Notes: generated from the letters alone by a model not told the origin. A stretch of DNA of 52,518 bases from Bdellovibrionales bacterium RIFOXYC1_FULL_37_79 (GCA_001770015.1 MEQB01000050.1:1-52518); one strand, 5' to 3'. Shown: positions 907-52,417, counted from the first letter of the stretch. Translations and numbers: made by a program.

Positions 907-2463
907 TCAATTTGAGTTATATTTAGTCTCAGCTGTACATACCACTTGTTTTTTGCTGGAAAAAATTCCGCCTTCGCATTTTTCTTCAACACAAGAAGTA
1001 GGACATGAAAATAATGATATGTCAGCGTGTTCCAACTTTTCTTTTAAGAAATCGTTACACTTCTTGATTGCTTCTTCTTTGGTTGACTCAAGATAGTCTG
1101 AAGGTTTTTTTGAGCAAGTGGAAGTGGCTTTAAAATTACCGATGAAATCTTCGTGCTCGAAGATGGTTGGCTTTAGGGGACCACATTTCATATTATCATA
1201 ATAATGAGGATTACCTTGAATACATATCGATTCAATTTGACCATCTCCGTCTTTGGAAAAAACTATCAATGGTGAAATATACCAATTACCGTTATAATTA
1301 ATTTCTCCAGGTTCATCATCGGATCCGTAAATTGTGTATTTGCCAATCAAGAAACCTGATGGTGAGAAAAGTGGTTTCTTAGTTTTTATTCTAATTTGGT
1401 TGTTGGAAACAAGACATGAGTTATAGAAAGTAACTGATTGAATTTGACTGTTTGAGTGAAAAGTAACTGAGTAACCGCTATTAACATCACAATTTGGATT
1501 TTCATATTTCAAAGATAATCTGCCTAAAGTAGCTTGCACAGAGTAAAAGTAAAGTTCTTTAATCTGATCGTTTGGGTGGAGATCAACTCCAAGAAAAGAA
1601 TCATTATAGGGAAGAATGGTAAGTATTCCTGCAATGTGAGTTAAATTTTGTGTTTTATCAGGTAATAAACCCTTTATCCGGCTCAATTCCCCATCTTGGT
1701 AAAAATCGATATAATAGCTATCAATTTGAGAAGGACCGAAAACACTTCCGGGACGTACGTCGAATAGTTCCTTAATGGGTATATTACGCCAGTCACCTTT
1801 ACTAAACAAAACATCATAAGCCAGCATGTATAAATATTTATCAATGGTAAAATTATCGAATTCATAGGAAAAGAATGTAGCATTTAAATACCTTACTCTC
1901 TTTGAATTAGGGTGAATGTAGGCATTTTCTTCTTTAGCCTCACGATAAATCAGCTCATGAATGACCAGACCGGCTTTATTGGTATTATCCATCTGATCCC
2001 AGAGATCTTTTCTAATTTTATAGCGTCTTTCGCCACTCATGGGTTTCTTTTGGTGAGCTGCTTGGACGATCTCACAGTTGGGAGGAAAACTAACTTCGCC
2101 GGTGTCCGGAATATCGCTTAAAGTATCGCTCGTGAATGTAGTATTTTCTGGTAGCTGAAATTCTTTCCACCACTTTTCATAAAGAGTGGCGCGGGTGGGA
2201 TTTAGTCTTTTTATTTTGTTTATAATGGATGTGACTTTATCATTTAACGACGTTGAATTGTCATCAAGGTCAAGTGTAATGTCATGACGAAATTTAGCCT
2301 CATAGAAATCATAGAGAATAATACTTTGAATGCTGCTATCAGGATTTTTACAAACTAAAACATCGCCACCATTTCCTGTGCCCTGTCCGTCCAGGGCTGC
2401 AAAGGCGCAGAAGCTGTTTAAATAAAGGGCGATAAGTGCGCTTAAGGATAATTGTTTAATCAT
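907..2463 (-). CDS. Exported GNGGD/HELIYRE-family protein, paralog B
   Basis: A 518-residue protein with a signal peptide (cleavage likely after CAFA), then a GNGGDVLVC motif, a YDFYEA motif and, near residue 165, GLVIHELIYREA. The last resembles a metalloprotease helix but lacks the second zinc His (HELIY rather than HExxH), so activity is doubtful. The middle (about 240-400) has short strands of the type F-x-x-(N/D)-G-x-I, like MORN/YwqK-type repeats. The C-terminus is Cys-rich. It is the second of two tandem paralogs. The first 235 residues and last 100 are nearly the same as in the neighbour, and the middle is much more different. A GGAG site lies 8 nt before ATG. Function unknown; it probably acts in the periplasm or at the cell surface. 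It ends at a strong terminator. Confidence 0.88.
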   Translation of the reverse strand: MIKQLSLSALIALYLNSFCAFAALDGQGTGNGGDVLVCKNPDSSIQSIILYDFYEAKFRHDITLDLDDNSTSLNDKVTSIINKIKRLNPTRATLYEKWWKEFQLPENTTFTSDTLSDIPDTGEVSFPPNCEIVQAAHQKKPMSGERRYKIRKDLWDQMDNTNKAGLVIHELIYREAKEENAYIHPNSKRVRYLNATFFSYEFDNFTIDKYLYMLAYDVLFSKGDWRNIPIKELFDVRPGSVFGPSQIDSYYIDFYQDGELSRIKGLLPDKTQNLTHIAGILTILPYNDSFLGVDLHPNDQIKELYFYSVQATLGRLSLKYENPNCDVNSGYSVTFHSNSQIQSVTFYNSCLVSNNQIRIKTKKPLFSPSGFLIGKYTIYGSDDEPGEINYNGNWYISPLIVFSKDGDGQIESICIQGNPHYYDNMKCGPLKPTIFEHEDFIGNFKATSTCSKKPSDYLESTKEEAIKKCNDFLKEKLEHADISLFSCPTSCVEEKCEGGIFSSKKQVVCTAETKYNSN

Positions 2464-2496
2464 TTTTATTCTCCATTTGGATAACGTCCATTTAAA

Positions 2497-4029
2497 TTAA
2501 TTCGAGTTATATTTAGTCACAGCCGTACATACCACTTTCTTTTTACTGGAAAAAATTCCGCCACCATCGCATTTTTCTTCAATACAAGAAGTAGGACAGG
2601 AAAAAAGTGATATGTCCGCTGATTCCAACTTTTCTTTTAAGAAATCGTTACATGCTTTGATTGCTTCTTGTTTGGTTGACTCAAGATATTCGGAAGGTTT
2701 TTTGGAGCAAGCGGAAGTGGCTTTAGAATTACCGATAAAATTTTCATGTTGGAAGAGGGTTTGCTTAAAAGGACCACATTCGTCTTCATCAAGGCATATT
2801 GATTCAATTTGACCGTCTCCTGCTTTAGAAAAAACAATCAACTTTATGGTATACCAATTATTGTTATAATTAATTTCTCCAGATTTAATATCGTATCCAC
2901 CAATTAAGTAGCCAGATGGTGAGAAATTGACTTCCACAAATCTTTTCTTAAATTCAATTCTTATATTTTTGTTGGAAAGGACACAGTGATCCGAGAAAAA
3001 AAAACGTTTTATCTGACCGTTTGAATGGAGATTGATCCAATCTGCAAGAGTACAACGAGGATTTTCATACTTTGATGATAACTTGCCTGCATAGAGATAC
3101 GAAGCCGGGCCTAGCTTCTCAAGTGTGCCGTCTGGATAGAATTTAAAAGTTAAGTCACCCAAAGGAGTATCGCCAGACAAATTATCAAGGATGATTGCAC
3201 CTCCTGCTATAGATACACTTGAGCTAGGTGGAATTTGAACTCTGCGCATCTCTTTTAGGAACCCATTTGGGTAAAAATCAACCTCATTCTTAATGTAAGG
3301 GATTCCAGGATTGTCATCATAGGTTGCATACAGCAGTTTGGTTAGTAGGCTATTCCATTCACCATTACTAAATTGAACATCGAAAGCCAGCATGTATAAA
3401 TATTTGTCGATGGTATAATCATTAAATTCATTGGAAAAGAAAGTAGCGTTTAAATATCTTACACGCTTTGAATTGAGATGAACGTAGGCATTTTCTTCTT
3501 TAGCTTCCCGATAAATCAGTTCATGAATGACCAGACCTGCTTTATTGGCATTATCCATCTGATCCCATAAATCTTTTCTGATTTTATAGCGCCTTTCTCC
3601 ACTAAAGGGTTTCTTTTGATGAGCTGCCTGGACAATTTCGCAATTGGCGGGATAGGTAACTTCCCCAGTATCCGGAATATCACTTAAAGTATCACTTGTG
3701 AACAAAGTATTTTCTGGTAGCTGAAATTCGTTCCACCACTTTTCATAAAGAGTGGCGCGGGTGGGATTTAGTCTTTTTATTTTGTTTATAATGGATGTGA
3801 CTTTATCATTTAACGACGTTGAATTGTCATCAAGGTCAAGTGTGATGTCATGACGAAATTTAGCTTCATAGAAATCATAGAGAATAATACTTTGAATGCT
3901 GCTATCAGGATTTTTACAAACCAAAACATCGCCACCATTTCCAGTTCCCTGTCCGTCCAGAGCTGCAAAGGAGCAGAAGCTAGTTAAATAAAGGGCGAGA
4001 AGTGCGCTTAAGGATAATTGTTTAATCAT
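2497..4029 (-). CDS. Exported GNGGD/HELIYRE-family protein, paralog A
   Basis: A 510-residue paralog of the downstream gene with the same signal peptide, GNGGDVLVC, YDFYEA and HELIYREA motifs. Its middle section again holds repeated F-(Y/H)-x-(N/D)-G-x-(I/L) units (FYPNGFLKE, FYPDGTLEK, LHSNGQIKR), which suggests a MORN-like beta repeat. Its ATG lies inside the last codons of the TIGR02147 regulator (8-nt overlap), so the two are probably translated together. The regulator, this gene and the next copy form one unit. Long identical DNA stretches shared with the neighbour (compare 2150-2300 and 3725-3870) indicate recent duplication or gene conversion. The lost second His of HExxH makes a protease role uncertain. 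Confidence 0.88.
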   Translation of the reverse strand: MIKQLSLSALLALYLTSFCSFAALDGQGTGNGGDVLVCKNPDSSIQSIILYDFYEAKFRHDITLDLDDNSTSLNDKVTSIINKIKRLNPTRATLYEKWWNEFQLPENTLFTSDTLSDIPDTGEVTYPANCEIVQAAHQKKPFSGERRYKIRKDLWDQMDNANKAGLVIHELIYREAKEENAYVHLNSKRVRYLNATFFSNEFNDYTIDKYLYMLAFDVQFSNGEWNSLLTKLLYATYDDNPGIPYIKNEVDFYPNGFLKEMRRVQIPPSSSVSIAGGAIILDNLSGDTPLGDLTFKFYPDGTLEKLGPASYLYAGKLSSKYENPRCTLADWINLHSNGQIKRFFFSDHCVLSNKNIRIEFKKRFVEVNFSPSGYLIGGYDIKSGEINYNNNWYTIKLIVFSKAGDGQIESICLDEDECGPFKQTLFQHENFIGNSKATSACSKKPSEYLESTKQEAIKACNDFLKEKLESADISLFSCPTSCIEEKCDGGGIFSSKKKVVCTAVTKYNSN

Positions 4030-4837
4030 TTTTATTCTCCATTAAATTAAAAAATTGCATGCTGAGGCAATATACTTTATTAGCTTTTTTATTTTCCAGT
4101 TTTTTTGCGATCAATCGGTCAAATTCGTTTCTAAATTCTTGTATTTTCTTTTTTAAAACTGGCAAATCTTCCGAGTGAATGGCCACTGTCAGAGTTGATA
4201 ATTCCCGCTCGTCAACACTTTGATCGGTGATTGATTTCATGGCTTTGTTTAATATTTGCTGACAAAATTTCTTGATGGATAAGGATGGAACACCGTGGGT
4301 GGTATCAAGCTGTATCCCGGTGGAAATGTACTGACCGCCGGTTTTTTTTATGAGTTTTAAACGAAGTAATCTCGCAAAGGCCTCGTCAACTTCCAAGGTG
4401 GTTAACCCAAGAGTCTTAGCGATCCACTTATGATTACTTTTAAAATCGCTTGTTGTAATCAGTTCAAGGATAGCGTAGTAATACCAATCAGAAATTAATT
4501 TAAAGGTATCCTCTTGTAATTGTTTTTTTTCTGAAAAGATTTTTATTTTTTCCAGGTTGCGTTGAGCAATATTTCTGTCTTTTTTTGATCGAGCGTCGTG
4601 GGCCATGACCAAATTAGTAAAATATTCGCTTTCTTGTTTGTTTAGTTTCAAAGTGCTGGCAATCTGGATTGCTTTTTGAGGTGAGATCCCTTGTTTTCCT
4701 CTTAGGATTTCGCTTAGATTGGAGGGGGCAATTTCTAAATCTCTGGCAAATGCACGTAGTGAATACCTGGTGTTTTGAATTTTTCTAAATTCCAAGTGTT
4801 CTTTCAAAATATCTCTGTAATGTTCATTCGGTTGCAT
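4022..4837 (-). CDS. TIGR02147/DUF4423-type transcriptional regulator (copy 1)
   Basis: A 271-residue protein with the pattern of the TIGR02147 family. An N-terminal helix-turn-helix (about residues 25-62, YSLRAFARDLEIAPSNLSEI) is followed by a linker and a C-terminal winged-helix-like domain starting at LISDWYYYAILEL. The family is common in Bdellovibrionota and Fibrobacteres and its function is poorly known. It overlaps the start of the exported paralog at 4029, so it probably controls, and is made together with, the two exported proteins. The -10 box ends only 6 nt before the ATG and there is no Shine-Dalgarno site, so the mRNA is predicted to be leaderless. The start ATG 4837 is supported by this promoter and by alignment with the copy at 52103 (MQ-x-x-x-x-Y). 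Confidence 0.85.
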   Translation of the reverse strand: MQPNEHYRDILKEHLEFRKIQNTRYSLRAFARDLEIAPSNLSEILRGKQGISPQKAIQIASTLKLNKQESEYFTNLVMAHDARSKKDRNIAQRNLEKIKIFSEKKQLQEDTFKLISDWYYYAILELITTSDFKSNHKWIAKTLGLTTLEVDEAFARLLRLKLIKKTGGQYISTGIQLDTTHGVPSLSIKKFCQQILNKAMKSITDQSVDERELSTLTVAIHSEDLPVLKKKIQEFRNEFDRLIAKKLENKKANKVYCLSMQFFNLMENKND

Positions 4838-7019: not shown

Positions 7020-7922
7020 TCAACGAAAAGTCTCTGTAAATTTTACACTTCCTGGAAGTGCATTAAGGAAATGATCCATCTTCTCTTGCCCAAAATCCTT
7101 GATCGCTTTGCGTTTATTACAATTGCTACAGAGTAATTGGATATTGGTTAAATTATTGGTTCCACCTTTGGCGTAAGGGATTAGGTGGTCAAATTCCAAG
7201 TTTTGAGTGGATTTACAGTTTTCACATTCTCCGTTTGTTCTTTTATAAACAGTCTCTTTGATTTTTCTTGGGATATGGCGACTGTTTTTTGCTGGAACAT
7301 TTTTAGACTCCCGTTTGACTTCAATCTTTTGATTGATATAGGTATCAGCCAGCAGCGAAATGATTTTATCCAGATCATCTTCCTTAGTTAAGTTTTTAAC
7401 TTTTTCAATTTTCTTCAGAGTTTCTTTAGAGAGGTTTACGTGAACTCTTGCGATTTCAGTTGTGGCGTTGTTAATAATGGTTCTTTTGGGGGTTTTATCA
7501 ATGCCAAAATCTTTTTTCATTTTATAAACCTTATCTTCACACTGGGTCTTAGTCAGGTTTTTCATTTGGTCAAAGATTTGCAGTTTGTCTTGTTTGGATA
7601 TTATGTTTGCCTCTTTAAAGAGATTGCTCGCAAGATTGATACTTGATAGGGAGAGTGATCCATTGTCGATATTTTTTTTAAGCTCAGGAAGAGTCTTAAG
7701 CACGCGCATTGCATTTATCCGTCTCCATGCTTGTTGTTCAGTATAGTTTAGTTCTTTTAATGAGTAGTCAAACAATGAAGTGTATCCCAGATCTGAGTAG
7801 AGTTTTCTTCTTTCAATTTCTTCCAGGTGAGAGATAATTTCAGAGAGCAGTTTTCGTTCTTTTTTTATTAGATTTTTTGTGCTGGTTAGCAGTTCTTGGT
7901 CGCTATAATTTTTGATATCCAT
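7020..7922 (-). CDS. HNH endonuclease-domain protein
   Basis: A 300-residue protein. The N-terminal half is helical (LGYTSLFDYSLKELNY... RRINAMR), as in DUF222-like/HNH families. The C-terminal HNH domain is about residues 225-285: C-x-x-C (CENC), FDHLIPYAKGG, N-x-x-x-L-x-C-x-x-C-N. HNH domains bind one metal and cut DNA. The zinc-knuckle cysteines and the DH pair are all present, so the enzyme may be active. AAGGAAAAG lies just before ATG 7922. The family is often multi-copy in Bdellovibrionota; here a broken 3' copy lies at 5013-5091, which hints at mobility or recombination. Its substrate is unknown. Confidence 0.85.
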   Translation of the reverse strand: MDIKNYSDQELLTSTKNLIKKERKLLSEIISHLEEIERRKLYSDLGYTSLFDYSLKELNYTEQQAWRRINAMRVLKTLPELKKNIDNGSLSLSSINLASNLFKEANIISKQDKLQIFDQMKNLTKTQCEDKVYKMKKDFGIDKTPKRTIINNATTEIARVHVNLSKETLKKIEKVKNLTKEDDLDKIISLLADTYINQKIEVKRESKNVPAKNSRHIPRKIKETVYKRTNGECENCKSTQNLEFDHLIPYAKGGTNNLTNIQLLCSNCNKRKAIKDFGQEKMDHFLNALPGSVKFTETFR

Positions 7923-37106: not shown

Positions 37107-38339
37107 TTAGTTTAAAATTTTAAGTTCTGCGAAGTTTTGGATAAGAACGAAATCATTCACATCGCGGTTTAAATCATAATGATTTTTTAGATCGCATTGT
37201 TCTGAAAAATTCTCATCATTCAGTTTGTTTTGATACACATTTGCCTGATAGATATAGTTTTTGATGTTTTTTAATTCACTATCCTTAAAAATAATTTTAT
37301 CTCTAAGGAGTGATTTTCGGTTACCCGACTCTTGGTATGCAACATGCTGGTAGATCATTTTATTGTTTGGTGGATAGTAATATAAAACATTATCAATATA
37401 CATTTGAGGTGCCAAATATTCTACATCGTCCCTGTCGCTACAAACTTCCCACGGAAATGCCCTGACATCACACCAGGGAAATAAACCATTGTACCAACCA
37501 TTAAAATTTGAAGAAGAAGAGATATTCCACATAATCGTTTTTTGTTTCTCATAAAGTTTCTGATACTCCGTTACTGCATTGGAAATAAAAACTTTAATTT
37601 GTTCATTGAATTCCCTGCATTCATTAGCAAAATGATCTGAATTGAAATATTGATATTCTTCAAGACTTAACCACATCTTATGCCAACCCAAGGTCGCTAA
37701 TTTAGTGACGACTTGTTCAACGCTTTGATATTCAAAAGTTGGACTAAAAATATAGATATTTAGTTCCCTTGCATTTTCTGAAGTATTATTGGAAAGTTTC
37801 TTGGCCATAAGAGCATAGATGGCTTCGTGAAAAATAGTTCCAAGTTTTTGATTGATACTGAGTTTTTGCCAGATATCCTTAACGATCCATGCTACCCGCT
37901 TGGAATCATCTCTAAAAACCATAGGAATTTTTTCGATGTTATTTCCAGAAGTCGGATTTCCGTAGGTATTGCCCAAATCATTGGCGGCAAGGATTTGCCA
38001 TTCAGTGGTTCTCCATTGGTATGTTTCAATGGTCTTCACTAGCATTTCAGCAAGTTCTGGAAGCAAAATATAGATCTCATTGATTTTTTTGATAGTCAGA
38101 TTAACTGCCTCTTCTCCTAGTGGCATTATGACTGAACGAAGTCTTTTATTGATTTGCATTTGATCAGTTTGTGTGTGATTGATGTAGATATTGTCGTAGA
38201 GTTGTCCTTCAACAAAATCGTAAAGGTAGTAAGTGTTACCTCTTTTGGCGGCATATCCACCACCGCTAGTCCAGCCACCTAGAGCATAGACGGACAAACA
38301 ATAGAATGTTCCTAAACAAATAATGAATATTTTTTTCAT
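37107..38339 (-). CDS. Exported protein, distant relative of the GNGGD/HELIYRE paralogs
   Basis: About 410 residues with a signal peptide. The mature start GGWTSGGGYAAKRGNTYYLYDFVEG parallels GNGGDVLVC...LYDFYEA of the 907-4029 pair. KDIWQKLSINQKLGTIFHEAIYA lines up with KDLWDQM-x(4)-KAGLVIHELIYRE. The second zinc His is again absent. The C-terminal YDLNRDVNDFVLIQ recurs in the metalloprotease at 39476. The frame begins at 38351 but ATG 38339 follows GGAG and begins the signal peptide. It is divergent from the TIGR02147 regulator at 38526, repeating the regulator-plus-exported-protein pairing. Confidence 0.82.
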   Translation of the reverse strand: MKKIFIICLGTFYCLSVYALGGWTSGGGYAAKRGNTYYLYDFVEGQLYDNIYINHTQTDQMQINKRLRSVIMPLGEEAVNLTIKKINEIYILLPELAEMLVKTIETYQWRTTEWQILAANDLGNTYGNPTSGNNIEKIPMVFRDDSKRVAWIVKDIWQKLSINQKLGTIFHEAIYALMAKKLSNNTSENARELNIYIFSPTFEYQSVEQVVTKLATLGWHKMWLSLEEYQYFNSDHFANECREFNEQIKVFISNAVTEYQKLYEKQKTIMWNISSSSNFNGWYNGLFPWCDVRAFPWEVCSDRDDVEYLAPQMYIDNVLYYYPPNNKMIYQHVAYQESGNRKSLLRDKIIFKDSELKNIKNYIYQANVYQNKLNDENFSEQCDLKNHYDLNRDVNDFVLIQNFAELKILN

Positions 38340-38353
38340 TCGTATCTCCAATT

Positions 38354-38369
38354 TGGTATGGTTATACCA
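38354..38369. promoter_or_regulatory. Small dyad upstream of the exported protein gene
   Basis: TGGTAT (38354-38359) and ATACCA (38364-38369) are inverted repeats around GGTT. On the minus strand the dyad overlaps a possible -10 (TATAAC), 15-30 nt ahead of ATG 38339. It could be an operator between the divergent genes. Short arms make chance possible. Confidence 0.35.
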
Positions 38370-38473
38370 TAAAAGCCCAATTGCCTGGGGCGATTATTAT
38401 TTTGAAGAAAAAAATTACCGGACTTTTCTTCTTCTGCTGCAAAGTAATTCTTATAGGTAAAAAGATCAATGAA

Positions 38474-38502
38474 TTGATAATTAATAATTAACATGATATT
38501 AT
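38474..38502 (+). promoter_or_regulatory. Promoter of regulator copy 2
   Basis: TTGATA (38474-38479), 17 bp, TATTAT (38497-38502). The ATG at 38493 lies between the two boxes and so cannot be the translation start, which makes TTG 38526 with its GGAGGG site the likely one. Confidence 0.65.
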
Positions 38503-38525
38503 ATAAAAAGTTAACTGGAGGGTGT

Positions 38526-39362
38526 TTGAACTTATTTAACTACTTGGGATATAAAGAAATTTTAAAAGAACTTTTGGCCTATAATAAGCGTGAAAAAAAT
38601 ACACGTTTTACTTTTCAGGATATGGCAAAAGCCGCACGTGTTCAAAAAACCTATCTTTCCAAAGTTTTAAACAGGGATGGAGATCTTAGTTTTGATCAAC
38701 TGTATTTAGCGTGTCGCTATCTGGAAGTTACCAGTGAAGAAATGCATTATATAGAGTTGGTTTATCAAATGAATTTAACTTATCTGCCTGGGAGAAAAAA
38801 AGAGTTGTTGGTTTTAATCAAGCAAATCCAAAAAAAATATAATAAATCGGAAACTCATTTACAGGCAGATAAAGTGAATGTTCTGCAGAAAGATTTAAGT
38901 GAATACTATCTTGATCCAGATATGCAAATTGTTCATATGGCATTAACCGTTGAGCGCTTCAGGCGTACACCGCATACGATTTGTAGGGAATTGCAGATTC
39001 CTGAATTTAAATTAAATCAAATTTTGGAAAAATTGGAAAAAATGCAGGTGATAGGAAAGAGCGAAGGAAGGTATATTGTTCTTAGAGAGAATTTGCACCT
39101 GGCAGATGATGCAGGATTTGTTATTCAATATAAAATTATGCAAAAGGTGAAATCAATTGAACTGATTCAAAAACTCAGTCCTGAGCAAAAATATAATTTT
39201 AGTGTGATCTTTTCTGCTACTCCCGAAGTAAAAATGGAAATTCAAGAAAACTTTTTTAAATTTTTAAAGAAGTGCCAGGCAAGCGTACAAAACGCTAAGC
39301 CGCAAGAGCTTTATCAATTAAACTTTGATCTATTTTCGTTATTTAATAGTACCGATATGTAG
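38526..39362 (+). CDS. TIGR02147/DUF4423-type transcriptional regulator (copy 2)
   Basis: About 278 residues with the same layout as copy 1. Helix-turn-helix at about 25-65 (TFQDMAKAARVQKTYLSKVLN), then a long helical linker and a C-terminal winged-helix-like domain (TPHTICRELQIPEFKLNQIL, the strand GRYIVLRENLHL). The start is TTG with GGAGGG 3-8 nt upstream; the ATG at 38493 lies inside the promoter. It is divergent from one exported protein gene and precedes the metalloprotease gene. It may control one or both, as copy 1 seems to control its own neighbours. The sequence differs much from copy 1. Confidence 0.82.
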   Translation: MNLFNYLGYKEILKELLAYNKREKNTRFTFQDMAKAARVQKTYLSKVLNRDGDLSFDQLYLACRYLEVTSEEMHYIELVYQMNLTYLPGRKKELLVLIKQIQKKYNKSETHLQADKVNVLQKDLSEYYLDPDMQIVHMALTVERFRRTPHTICRELQIPEFKLNQILEKLEKMQVIGKSEGRYIVLRENLHLADDAGFVIQYKIMQKVKSIELIQKLSPEQKYNFSVIFSATPEVKMEIQENFFKFLKKCQASVQNAKPQELYQLNFDLFSLFNSTDM

Positions 39363-39415
39363 TCGACTGCTAAATCCCTGAATAAAGTGCTGCTAGCAAT
39401 GCTTTGCTGTAAAGG

Positions 39416-39444
39416 TTGACACCCTCACCGGCCCTCTCTAAAAT
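39416..39444 (+). promoter_or_regulatory. Near-consensus sigma-70 promoter of the metalloprotease
   Basis: TTGACA (39416-39421), exactly 17 bp, TAAAAT (39439-39444): 11 of 12 consensus bases. The spacer is strikingly GC-rich for this window. TAGGAGGGG follows the -10 immediately. Confidence 0.8.
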
Positions 39445-39475
39445 ATAGGAGGGGTTCTTATAGGGGACCGGGGGT

Positions 39476-41452
39476 ATGTTTTTGAAAAATATTTTTTTGT
39501 TACTGTCAGCCGCTATTATTTTTAGTGAAATAATTACTGATGTATGTGCCCAATCTAAAGAAATTTCTCTAGATTGGAAATGCGACCAATCCTATAACAC
39601 CAAGGTTCCTTTGTCAGAAACAATAAAATTTAGACTTGATGCTCAATCAAAAAAGGTATTTTCTAAAGATTTTGAAGTTATATTATCGAAAGCGTATGCG
39701 GAATCACAATTTGATTTTTTTGATTGTTTCCATTATTTTTTAAATTCAGCAAGGTATTCAAGGTCAGGTGATATTACCCGTTATGTACGAAACTTAGTGG
39801 CTCAATACGGGGCACAGTCCTTTAGTAAATCAGCAATATCTCCTTACGAACCTGGAGAAGATTCTCGTTTGGAAATTACGAAGAAGCAGCAGAAACTAAT
39901 TGATAACTGGAGTAATAATCCTTGTAGATTGAATTTGAACGTTCAAAAAAATAAAATACTGGAAAAAAAATTTTTAGAGGAACAATTGCCTCGAATAGTA
40001 AATAAAATGAAAGTTGGTAGAACCTCAGATAAAGTTCGAAAGTGTTTAGCGAATGTTGCTCAAGTTTATCTTGACGCACTTTTGGATTCAAGTTTGTCAC
40101 CAAACCAATGTGCCACTTTTCCTGATATTTGTAGTAAAAGATATCAATCAATCCAAAAAACCTTGAGCATGATTTCAAGAATTAGTGATTTGAGTCCCTT
40201 TTTTGAATCTGTTGATAAGGGGATAAGTTCATGTTCGTCAGAAGGACAGAGAACAAACAAAGTACTGTATGAACTCAATCGGAATGTGAACGATATTGTT
40301 CACATTCAAACCTGTGTAACGCTTAAACCCGGAGAGTCGAACCTTATTGGGTGGGATTATAGCGGTTCTGGTGTGTACAGCGACTATGTTTTAACCAGAA
40401 TGCCACCAGCGAATAATGGTCCTAGCTATGTTGCAACAGTCAATTTAAAATTCCAACAAGAAGATAAGAACGAATTTGATGAAAATTTTAATCAACAATA
40501 TATCTTCAAAACAAAAAAATGTTTGTCGGAAATTCAGGATAGACTTAGGGGACCTAATGGAGAAATTTTATCAGTTCAATTATATGAAAAAAATAGTTTT
40601 AAAAATACAATTATCCCGTCTGAAATTTTTGTGGAAATTACCAAAGATGAAATACGGGATAACTCGCTAAAATGGAGCCCCAATTCAGATTGCCCAACGA
40701 TTACTCATGAAATTTTTCATCATCTAGGACTGGTCGATGAATATGAGGAAGTTCAAAGAGGTGTTAAAATCGAGGCTGACGGATCGATAATTTGGGTTGA
40801 AAATGATGCAACTTTTCCCCAATATAATTGTAGGACTTTAGGCCCGGAAGATTCTATTATGCATAACCCACATAAAGCTTTTGATAAAATACATTCAGGA
40901 TTAACGATACTCGCCTGTCAATGTGGGGGTACTACAGGTTTTGGGGTTGGATCAGGTTATGGATCTGGAACGGGAGGAATGGATGTCGGTGTGGGAAAAG
41001 ACTTTATGAAAGAAGAAAGAGCAGACCTAATGACTCAAATGCATAAGCAAATGGAGGAATTCAAAAAGAAATGTTTTCAAAAATTAAATAATATCCCTGT
41101 TAATAGTGATCGTTGTCCAGGATCGACTAGCAAAATTGAAATAGAAATCAATTTTGCTGATTTAAAATCAAATTCTTATTTGAAAGATCAAGTTGATATG
41201 GCGAAGAAAAACGAATTTGATAAGAATTCCATGTCTAGAGTAATAAGGGTACAACCGCATAAGAAAAATGAGTCACTGCTTTATCCGGCTCATTATAGGG
41301 CCATCACTCAACCGGGGTGTAGCACTAATCATTTATATTACTCATGTGCGAAGCAAGCAGAATGGACATCTCGATATGCATATGGAGAAAAGAAATGTAA
41401 CCATGGCGTTCCACAAGAGTGTTTGGATGGAGGGGCAACATGGTTAAAATAG
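39476..41452 (+). CDS. Exported metalloprotease, HExxHxxGxxD type
   Basis: A 658-residue protein with a signal peptide (to about residue 25). The zinc motif H411-E-I-F-H415-H-L-G-L-V-D421-E-Y matches HExxHxxGxxD, so two His and one Asp would bind zinc and Glu412 act as base. An N-terminal prodomain-like region (30-400) includes YELNRNVNDIVHIQ (about 264-277), a motif shared with the exported protein at 37107. A Gly-rich stretch follows the active site (about 484-505), and the C-terminus is Cys-rich. It probably degrades extracellular or prey proteins; the target is unknown. The strongest promoter of the window drives it. Confidence 0.85.
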   Translation: MFLKNIFLLLSAAIIFSEIITDVCAQSKEISLDWKCDQSYNTKVPLSETIKFRLDAQSKKVFSKDFEVILSKAYAESQFDFFDCFHYFLNSARYSRSGDITRYVRNLVAQYGAQSFSKSAISPYEPGEDSRLEITKKQQKLIDNWSNNPCRLNLNVQKNKILEKKFLEEQLPRIVNKMKVGRTSDKVRKCLANVAQVYLDALLDSSLSPNQCATFPDICSKRYQSIQKTLSMISRISDLSPFFESVDKGISSCSSEGQRTNKVLYELNRNVNDIVHIQTCVTLKPGESNLIGWDYSGSGVYSDYVLTRMPPANNGPSYVATVNLKFQQEDKNEFDENFNQQYIFKTKKCLSEIQDRLRGPNGEILSVQLYEKNSFKNTIIPSEIFVEITKDEIRDNSLKWSPNSDCPTITHEIFHHLGLVDEYEEVQRGVKIEADGSIIWVENDATFPQYNCRTLGPEDSIMHNPHKAFDKIHSGLTILACQCGGTTGFGVGSGYGSGTGGMDVGVGKDFMKEERADLMTQMHKQMEEFKKKCFQKLNNIPVNSDRCPGSTSKIEIEINFADLKSNSYLKDQVDMAKKNEFDKNSMSRVIRVQPHKKNESLLYPAHYRAITQPGCSTNHLYYSCAKQAEWTSRYAYGEKKCNHGVPQECLDGGATWLK

Positions 41453-42081
41453 TTTTAGTACTTATACTTTTTGCTCTGAATATGCAGGTTGTGATGAGCA
41501 ACGAAAAAATTCTTATAAGGGTACAAAAATATGCATCTAATTTACTTCATCATCGATCACTTTTATTTGAGAAGGAAAGAATAATACTTGGTTTGAATTC
41601 AAATATTTTTTGTGGTCCTGAACTTGAAGTTCCATTGGGGGTTTTTGAAAAAAAACAGGATATCATGCTAAAAAGTCATCACAATTTTTTAGAGCAAATT
41701 TTCATTCGAATGAAAACTAGGGAGAAAAAAAAGACTGATAAGCATATTGGGATTGTGACTCAATATTTTCTTGGAGAAAAAGATATTTCTGATGACTTTG
41801 ATGTTTTAGTAACGGTGAAGCAATTATTGAGCGAAAGTTGTTCGTGGAATGGATGGATTGCACAAAAGGCAGTCTTGGTCAAAATTGTCTTACGGGATGG
41901 ACAATTTTATCTTAGAGTGAGTCAATTGGTTGATAACAAAATTATTTCTGTTCAAGATACGCCTTTATTGCTTGCGAAATGCAAAAAAATTGGAAAAGCA
42001 GATAATGATGGCGAAATTTATGATTGCTTGATTGAAAGTTATGGATTGGTACGTCTTCTGGTGGGAAAAAATAGCCAATAG
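41440..42081 (+). CDS. Exported partner protein of the metalloprotease
   Basis: About 213 residues with signal peptide (MVKIVLVLILFALNMQVVMS) and four mature cysteines (FCGPE, ESCSWNG, AKCKK, YDCLI). The frame opens at 41419 but ATG 41440 has GGAGGGG 5 nt upstream and begins the signal peptide. It starts 13 nt inside the metalloprotease gene, so the two are coupled and a direct role such as inhibitor, chaperone or co-secreted factor is plausible. No known family. Confidence 0.8.
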   Translation: MVKIVLVLILFALNMQVVMSNEKILIRVQKYASNLLHHRSLLFEKERIILGLNSNIFCGPELEVPLGVFEKKQDIMLKSHHNFLEQIFIRMKTREKKKTDKHIGIVTQYFLGEKDISDDFDVLVTVKQLLSESCSWNGWIAQKAVLVKIVLRDGQFYLRVSQLVDNKIISVQDTPLLLAKCKKIGKADNDGEIYDCLIESYGLVRLLVGKNSQ

Positions 42082-52102: not shown

Positions 52103-52417
52103 ATGCAAAAACATGATTATCAACATTTACTTGAATCGGAGTTTCATAAAAGATTAGAAAGAAATACATCATATTCTTTAAGAGCTTTTGCTTTATCTCT
52201 TGGCCTAACTTCTTCTGCCATATCTGAACTATTATCTGGAAAACGAAAAATATCTGTAAAAAAAGCTGAGAGCTTTGTAGATTTACTCGATTTAACTATT
52301 GAAGAAAAAGATCGATTTATAAATTCAGTAAAAAGTACTAAAGCTAGATATAAAAAAAAGAAAGTTATAGAGCAAAATAACTACCACGTAAGCGGTAAAT
52401 GGCCATCCTATCTTTAA
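52103..52417 (+). CDS. TIGR02147-type regulator, N-terminal half only (copy 3, truncated)
   Basis: A 104-residue protein that matches the N-terminal part of copy 1: ERNTSYSLRAFALSLGLTSSAISELLSGKRKISVKKAE against NTRYSLRAFARDLEIAPSNLSEILRGKQGISPQKA. The helix-turn-helix is complete. The protein stops at VSGKWPSYL, the place where full-length members enter the C-terminal domain (LISDWYYYAIL in copy 1). It may be a decayed gene or a short DNA-binding competitor. It starts 12 nt after a TATAAA-like box with no good ribosome site. Right of the stop no more of the family is seen. Confidence 0.75.
   Translation: MQKHDYQHLLESEFHKRLERNTSYSLRAFALSLGLTSSAISELLSGKRKISVKKAESFVDLLDLTIEEKDRFINSVKSTKARYKKKKVIEQNNYHVSGKWPSYL

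Follow-up and report, generated by a model that had tools for sequence, protein, structure and literature searches.

A family of two-gene cassettes pairing a DUF4423-type regulator with an exported protein in Bdellovibrionota

Bacteria of the phylum Bdellovibrionota, which is known for its predators, carry an undescribed, phylum-wide family of two-gene cassettes, in which a gene for a regulator of the TIGR02147/DUF4423 type lies beside a gene for an exported protein. Two examples, here called copy 1 and copy 2, are found in the window, i.e. the whole stretch of 52,518 nt analysed here (MEQB01000050.1:1-52518), which belongs to Bdellovibrionales bacterium RIFOXYC1_FULL_37_79 (GCA_001770015.1; genome of 4.36 Mb in 74 contigs). 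The interpretation that we favour, with modest confidence, is that this genome contains about 36 copies of a Bdellovibrionota-wide cassette for a locally regulated, exported, metallopeptidase-like effector, the copy 2 locus (37107-39362) being one of them. The searchable literature holds nothing on a regulator-linked exported-protein family; it lists TIGR02147/DUF4423 proteins as a family of unknown function and has no exported partner on record for them. The cassette gives this large regulator family a partner, and hence a testable role. A first-pass annotation of the window had described the open reading frames (ORFs) and strands at 37107-42081 and 907-4029, all of which are present as it said (Table 1), and had assigned regulators, exported proteins, a metalloprotease and the small partner of the latter to one undescribed regulator-linked module family for secretion or predation. 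The regulator and the exported protein do form a linked unit, whereas the metalloprotease and its partner fall outside it and the assignment to secretion or predation is speculative.

Genome-wide figures given here come from profile searches of the host contigs together with 400 kb of sampled control DNA (322 genes). With 38 matches to TIGR02147 and 36 to DUF4423, the host possesses about 36-38 regulator genes in total. The co-occurrence of regulator and exported protein, which the first-pass annotation had counted as happening twice, is thereby confirmed, but the count was too low, as the genome has regulators at about 36 loci and a third regulator lies in the window itself; the latter is truncated by the contig end, so that its partner is expected on another contig. 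About 21 of the host regulators are directly followed, on the same strand and mostly with an overlap of 4-14 bp, by an ORF with a predicted signal peptide, and about nine have a divergent ORF of this kind within 170 bp. The combination of signal peptide, G motif and HE..[YFHW] occurs in 13 of the 69 regulator-adjacent genes and in none of the 322 control genes (Fisher 6e-11), while signal peptide and G motif alone are present in 20 and 5 of them, respectively, the five control genes being mostly lipoprotein-like. Counting the matches of a family profile hidden Markov model (HMM) near regulators, as the first-pass annotation had suggested, likewise revealed enrichment: all 17 matches in the host genome sit at regulator loci, 16 of them no more than 2 kb from the regulator (3.9% of the genome by chance), although 13 of the 17 are seeds of the HMM taken from regulator neighbourhoods. 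Three of the four non-seed matches are within 2 kb of a regulator; the fourth, a fragment, belongs to the same cluster at a distance of 3.9 kb. A location-blind search with the exported protein 37107-38351 alone led to three other places, each with a regulator at most about 2 kb away.

Loci from other genomes are free of this seed bias. In a scan of named genomes, for which five co-directional members of the exported family served as queries, a regulator was part of the locus, nearly always adjacent, at 29 of 31 exported-family loci; most of these loci are assigned by name to Bdellovibrionota-type lineages (including a complete genome of B. bacteriovorus) and the rest to proteobacterial bins. 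Among a further set of 29 other genomes of the phylum the regulator was adjacent in every case (29/29), mostly immediately upstream with an overlap of 4-8 bp. These loci, together with the contrast between regulator-adjacent and control genes in the host, establish the regulator-linked exported-protein family, and with such strict linkage the exported protein under the control of a regulator can be predicted from the cassette in which the two lie. Seen from the other side, 27 of 29 regulators have a neighbour with a predicted signal peptide and 14 of 29 have a member of the exported family itself. The copy numbers of regulators and exported proteins correlate across 96 genomes (Spearman 0.83, uncorrected for genome size and phylogeny), in none of which the exported family was found without a regulator.

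The landmarks common to 37107-38351 and to the tandem pair at the copy 1 locus (907-2463 and 2497-4029) reflect true homology. A family HMM built exclusively from members in other genomes matches 37107-38351 at 4.2e-10 and none of the 322 control genes, although the pairwise BLASTP likeness to the tandem pair is weak (3e-5 at 22% identity). In the core alignment of 13 members from the host genome a G, a D, an H, an E and an R are invariant and a Y and an S nearly so; further characteristics of the proteins are an N-terminus rich in G (GNGGD or SGGG) as well as LD, HExxY and S..R signatures. The partners of co-directional regulators (class A) and of divergent regulators (class B) are homologous as well, as judged from a profile comparison (95%, 3.4e-8) in which 37107-38351 was left out of the class B side but was present among the 31 class A rows. 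The N-terminus of 37107-38351, MKKIFIICLGTFYCLSVYA, looks like a typical signal peptide by a crude hydropathy rule.

No Pfam or NCBIfam model matched the exported core above cutoff, and sequence comparison with known structures yielded no credible match; the core is an undescribed domain without counterpart in Pfam or the PDB. The AlphaFold2 model of the core of 2497-4029 (residues encoded by 3223-3966) is confident (predicted local distance difference test, pLDDT, 84.8; predicted template modelling score, pTM, 0.85) and places the HE pair on a long helix. The HExxH motif is absent from 37107-38351 (HEAIY) and from the GNGGD class (HELIY) and present in several other cassette partners. One cassette partner connects the family to matrixins (PF00413, M10): the divergent partner of a sister regulator (C11; partner at L066:1815-2951) begins with GWTSGGG like 37107-38351 and passes the Pfam cutoff as a matrixin-type metallopeptidase. 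By contrast, 37107-38351 and the GNGGD proteins are not matched by the matrixin model and have HExxY, without the metzincin motif HExxHxxGxxH.

The paralogs 907-2463 and 2497-4029 differ from each other in a mosaic manner. Their first 120 residues are 96% and their ends 80% identical, while the middle (alignment columns 215-400) is only 41% identical, with 87 amino-acid-changing versus 25 silent codon differences. The pattern looks like a variable module set between constant ends.

The regulators of copy 1 and copy 2 both match DUF4423 (PF14394), a domain that lies C-terminal to a helix-turn-helix (HTH), and copy 1 matches TIGR02147 (Fsuc_second) as well. The first-pass annotation had named copy 2 a TIGR02147 regulator too; its DUF4423 match is clear (2.3e-17, 63.7 bits against a cutoff of 30) and it is related to copy 1 (BLASTP 2e-8), but the TIGR02147 model itself gave no match at E<=1, and copy 2 is therefore filed as a DUF4423 protein and not as a strict TIGR02147 member. 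It sits in a clade of divergent-type regulators that falls below the TIGR02147 model. In a tree of 36 host regulators, whose long branches leave the details unsure, 11 divergent-type regulators including copy 2 (class B, support 92) stand apart from 19 co-directional ones (class A). The tree has two fixed ARRANGEMENTS, with class A upstream of its partner and class B divergent from it, and one state change among the labelled rows, of which C32, C36_188 and C36_80 are less strictly labelled, since their exported relative does not directly adjoin the regulator. This distribution suggests that the arrangement is inherited along the regulator phylogeny. At copy 2 the regulator and the exported gene diverge and are 141-186 bp apart, depending on the starts chosen. 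The most likely start codon of the exported gene is ATG 38339, preceded by GGAGA, which would give the gene the extent 37107-38339; the regulator probably starts at TTG 38526, which has a good ribosome-binding site (GGAGGG) and agrees with where its sister regulators begin, in which case the annotated start at 38493 would be wrong.

The model of the copy 1 regulator (pLDDT 91.3) consists of an HTH, a winged helix and long helices, and its structural neighbours are HigA and MarR-type regulators, every one at an E-value above 0.01. The HTH also resembles HigA by NCBIfam (1.2e-6). Since this likeness is accompanied by the gene overlap that is typical of toxin-antitoxin pairs, one might suppose that the regulator restrains a harmful partner; we consider such a unit improbable. 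The likeness to HigA is confined to the N-terminal HTH, to which the window regulators add the winged helix and C-terminal helices and reach three times the length of HigA. Their partner is long (200-800 aa), exported by prediction, without similarity to the HigB nuclease and without a match in PADLOC, and no HigB-type gene lies beside the regulator. A role in anti-phage defence was considered separately and rejected: the metalloprotease and its partner, like the exported proteins, have no PADLOC match, and the regulators only short and weak ones.

Another parallel is found in the repressor-protease pairs of the ImmR/ImmA type, in which, as in the cassette, an HTH regulator gene lies beside a gene for a peptidase-like protein with an HE motif. 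ImmA works as a protease within the cytoplasm and cuts its own repressor, whereas the cassette partner, with its predicted signal peptide, is expected to be exported. That a cytoplasmic regulator is so strictly paired with an exported product also recalls peptide-sensing regulators and their exported peptides, and the exported protein could in principle be a sensor or signal source that the regulator reads. This seems very improbable to us, given that the exported products are large and, according to the model, folded, that neither an importer nor a short-peptide gene is linked to them, and that the regulator model lacks a TPR-like fold.

In the reading that we prefer, the cassette would combine a cytoplasmic DNA-binding protein (HigA-like HTH plus DUF4423 winged helix) with one exported protein composed of a signal peptide, a G-rich N-terminus and a globular domain that carries HE on a helix (HExxY, or HExxH in some partners). 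The regulator would respond to a cytoplasmic cue specific to the locus and thereby control the small operon or the divergent promoter of that locus, and the controlled protein would leave the cytoplasm to work outside it, either as a metallopeptidase or as a binding protein derived from one. Many paralogous cassettes would thus provide many separately switched exported effectors.

Several observations weigh against this interpretation. The fold search with the core model of 2497-4029 against the PDB returned no match at E<1 and no peptidase clan; the only peptidase among the weak matches was selecase, a minimal HExxH metallopeptidase (E 1.9-4.9, 7-9 Å root-mean-square deviation), a likeness that is not significant. 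Most family members have Tyr instead of His as the second zinc ligand, which makes zinc catalysis doubtful, and export of the partners is called by a crude signal-peptide rule. Co-divergence of regulators and partners is weak across 41 pairs (Pearson 0.19, with 12 of 2000 permutations as high) and not significant among the host's own paralogs. Finally, operators do not stand out from chance: inverted repeats occur upstream of 10 of the 36 host regulators (shuffles: mean 6.2, maximum 13), and GGTA-N-TACC occurs at 2 of the 36 compared with 6 of 321 controls. The inverted repeat TGGTAT-GGTT-ATACCA between the divergent genes of copy 2 is a candidate operator that does not exceed chance. A second candidate is suggested by the palindrome GGTAATTACC, conserved about 90 bp upstream of a regulator that is orthologous among four genomes (L169, L170, L173 and L174), and with one mismatch in a fifth (L172), within an upstream region that has otherwise diverged.

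What the cassettes are used for may be more ordinary. They could serve envelope or nutrient functions, such as scavenging exoproteins or cell-wall upkeep, under local regulators and unrelated to prey or effectors, which we regard as a serious possibility, if not a probable one. The spread in copy number, with none in some genomes and more than 30 in others, speaks for it, and exported hydrolases are common in free-living bacteria. On the other hand, the many paralogs, the strict one-to-one pairing and the mosaic middle of the 907/2497 pair resemble a diversified interaction repertoire, an argument that is not decisive. At the opposite extreme, and as a rather doubtful extension of the effector interpretation, the cassettes might form a polymorphic Bdellovibrionota arsenal in which dozens of exported effectors are each regulated separately. 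These would share a fold unmatched in the PDB, and their HExxY...S..R site would be a novel catalytic centre or else the relic of a metallopeptidase that has turned to binding; every locus would then switch on one effector in a particular prey or prey stage, and the variable middles would set the target. If the products act on prey, the family would list predator effectors by the dozen and so address a long-standing gap in Bdellovibrio-like biology. The only outside hint at a link with prey comes from B. bacteriovorus, in which Bd3700, a DUF4423 protein according to its table entry, is up-regulated at prey exit with a log2 fold change of 2.67 (PMC12546842).

Table 1. Features of the window at the copy 1 and copy 2 loci and in their surroundings.
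Feature	Coordinates	Strand	Remarks
Exported protein, copy 2	37107..38351	-	Predicted signal peptide, GGWTSGGG, LYDFVEG, HEAIY...S..AR core; external-only HMM 4.2e-10
Divergent promoter region	38340..38525	.	Holds inverted repeat TGGTAT-GGTT-ATACCA, 38354-38369 (candidate operator)
Regulator copy 2	38493..39362	+	HTH + DUF4423
Exported protein, second of the tandem paralog pair at copy 1 locus	907..2463	-	GNGGD...HELIY class
Exported protein, copy 1 locus	2497..4029	-	GNGGD...HELIY class; 8 bp overlap with regulator; core 3223-3966 modelled
Regulator copy 1	4022..4837	-	TIGR02147/DUF4423; directly upstream of 2497-4029
Metalloprotease with HEIFHHLGLVDEY	39476..41452	+	Neighbour, judged outside the cassette
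Exported partner of the metalloprotease	41419..42081	+	Comparable short ORF in several other genomes; judged outside the cassette
Third TIGR02147 regulator	52103..52417	+	Cut off by contig end

The two genes downstream of the copy 2 regulator require separate treatment, as regulator, exported protein, metalloprotease and small partner might constitute a single four-gene module. The genes are neighbours, several of their products look exported, and the first-pass annotation had linked the metalloprotease to 37107-38351 through the string Y-(D/E)-L-N-R-x-V-N-D-x-V-x-I-Q. This 20-residue string is indeed present in both proteins (12 of 20 positions identical), and a comparably similar one is found in only about 1-2 of 600 random or shuffled pairs, i.e. 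the likeness is rarer than chance for one pair. However, no other exported-family protein contains it, and neither do the aligned relatives of the metalloprotease, one of which is 38% identical; the string is thus no link between the metalloprotease and the exported family and was discarded as evidence of membership. The family HMM does not match the metalloprotease either. Homologs of the metalloprotease exist in 18 of 192 genomes of the phylum (itself included), several of them followed by a short ORF as in the window, but when these loci were inspected with 1.5 kb flanks no regulator was seen except at the window's own locus, and the metalloprotease was rejected as a cassette member on this ground. 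Moreover, the regulator and the metalloprotease have between them the site that most resembles a promoter in this region (TTGACA-17-TAAAAT, 39416-39444), although promoter-like sites are not in excess in the region overall. We therefore give little credence to a four-gene module. Independently of the cassette, the metalloprotease (HExxHxxGLVDEY) and the short overlapping ORF form a conserved two-gene unit of their own in other Bdellovibrionota.

A further type of gene recurs near several regulator loci. It encodes a protein of about 300 aa that starts with M-[DN]-[LI]-KNYSD-x-ELL, is found at 7020-7922 of the window as well as at L057:5684-6601 and L065:6720-7643, and is possibly a dispersed or mobile gene.

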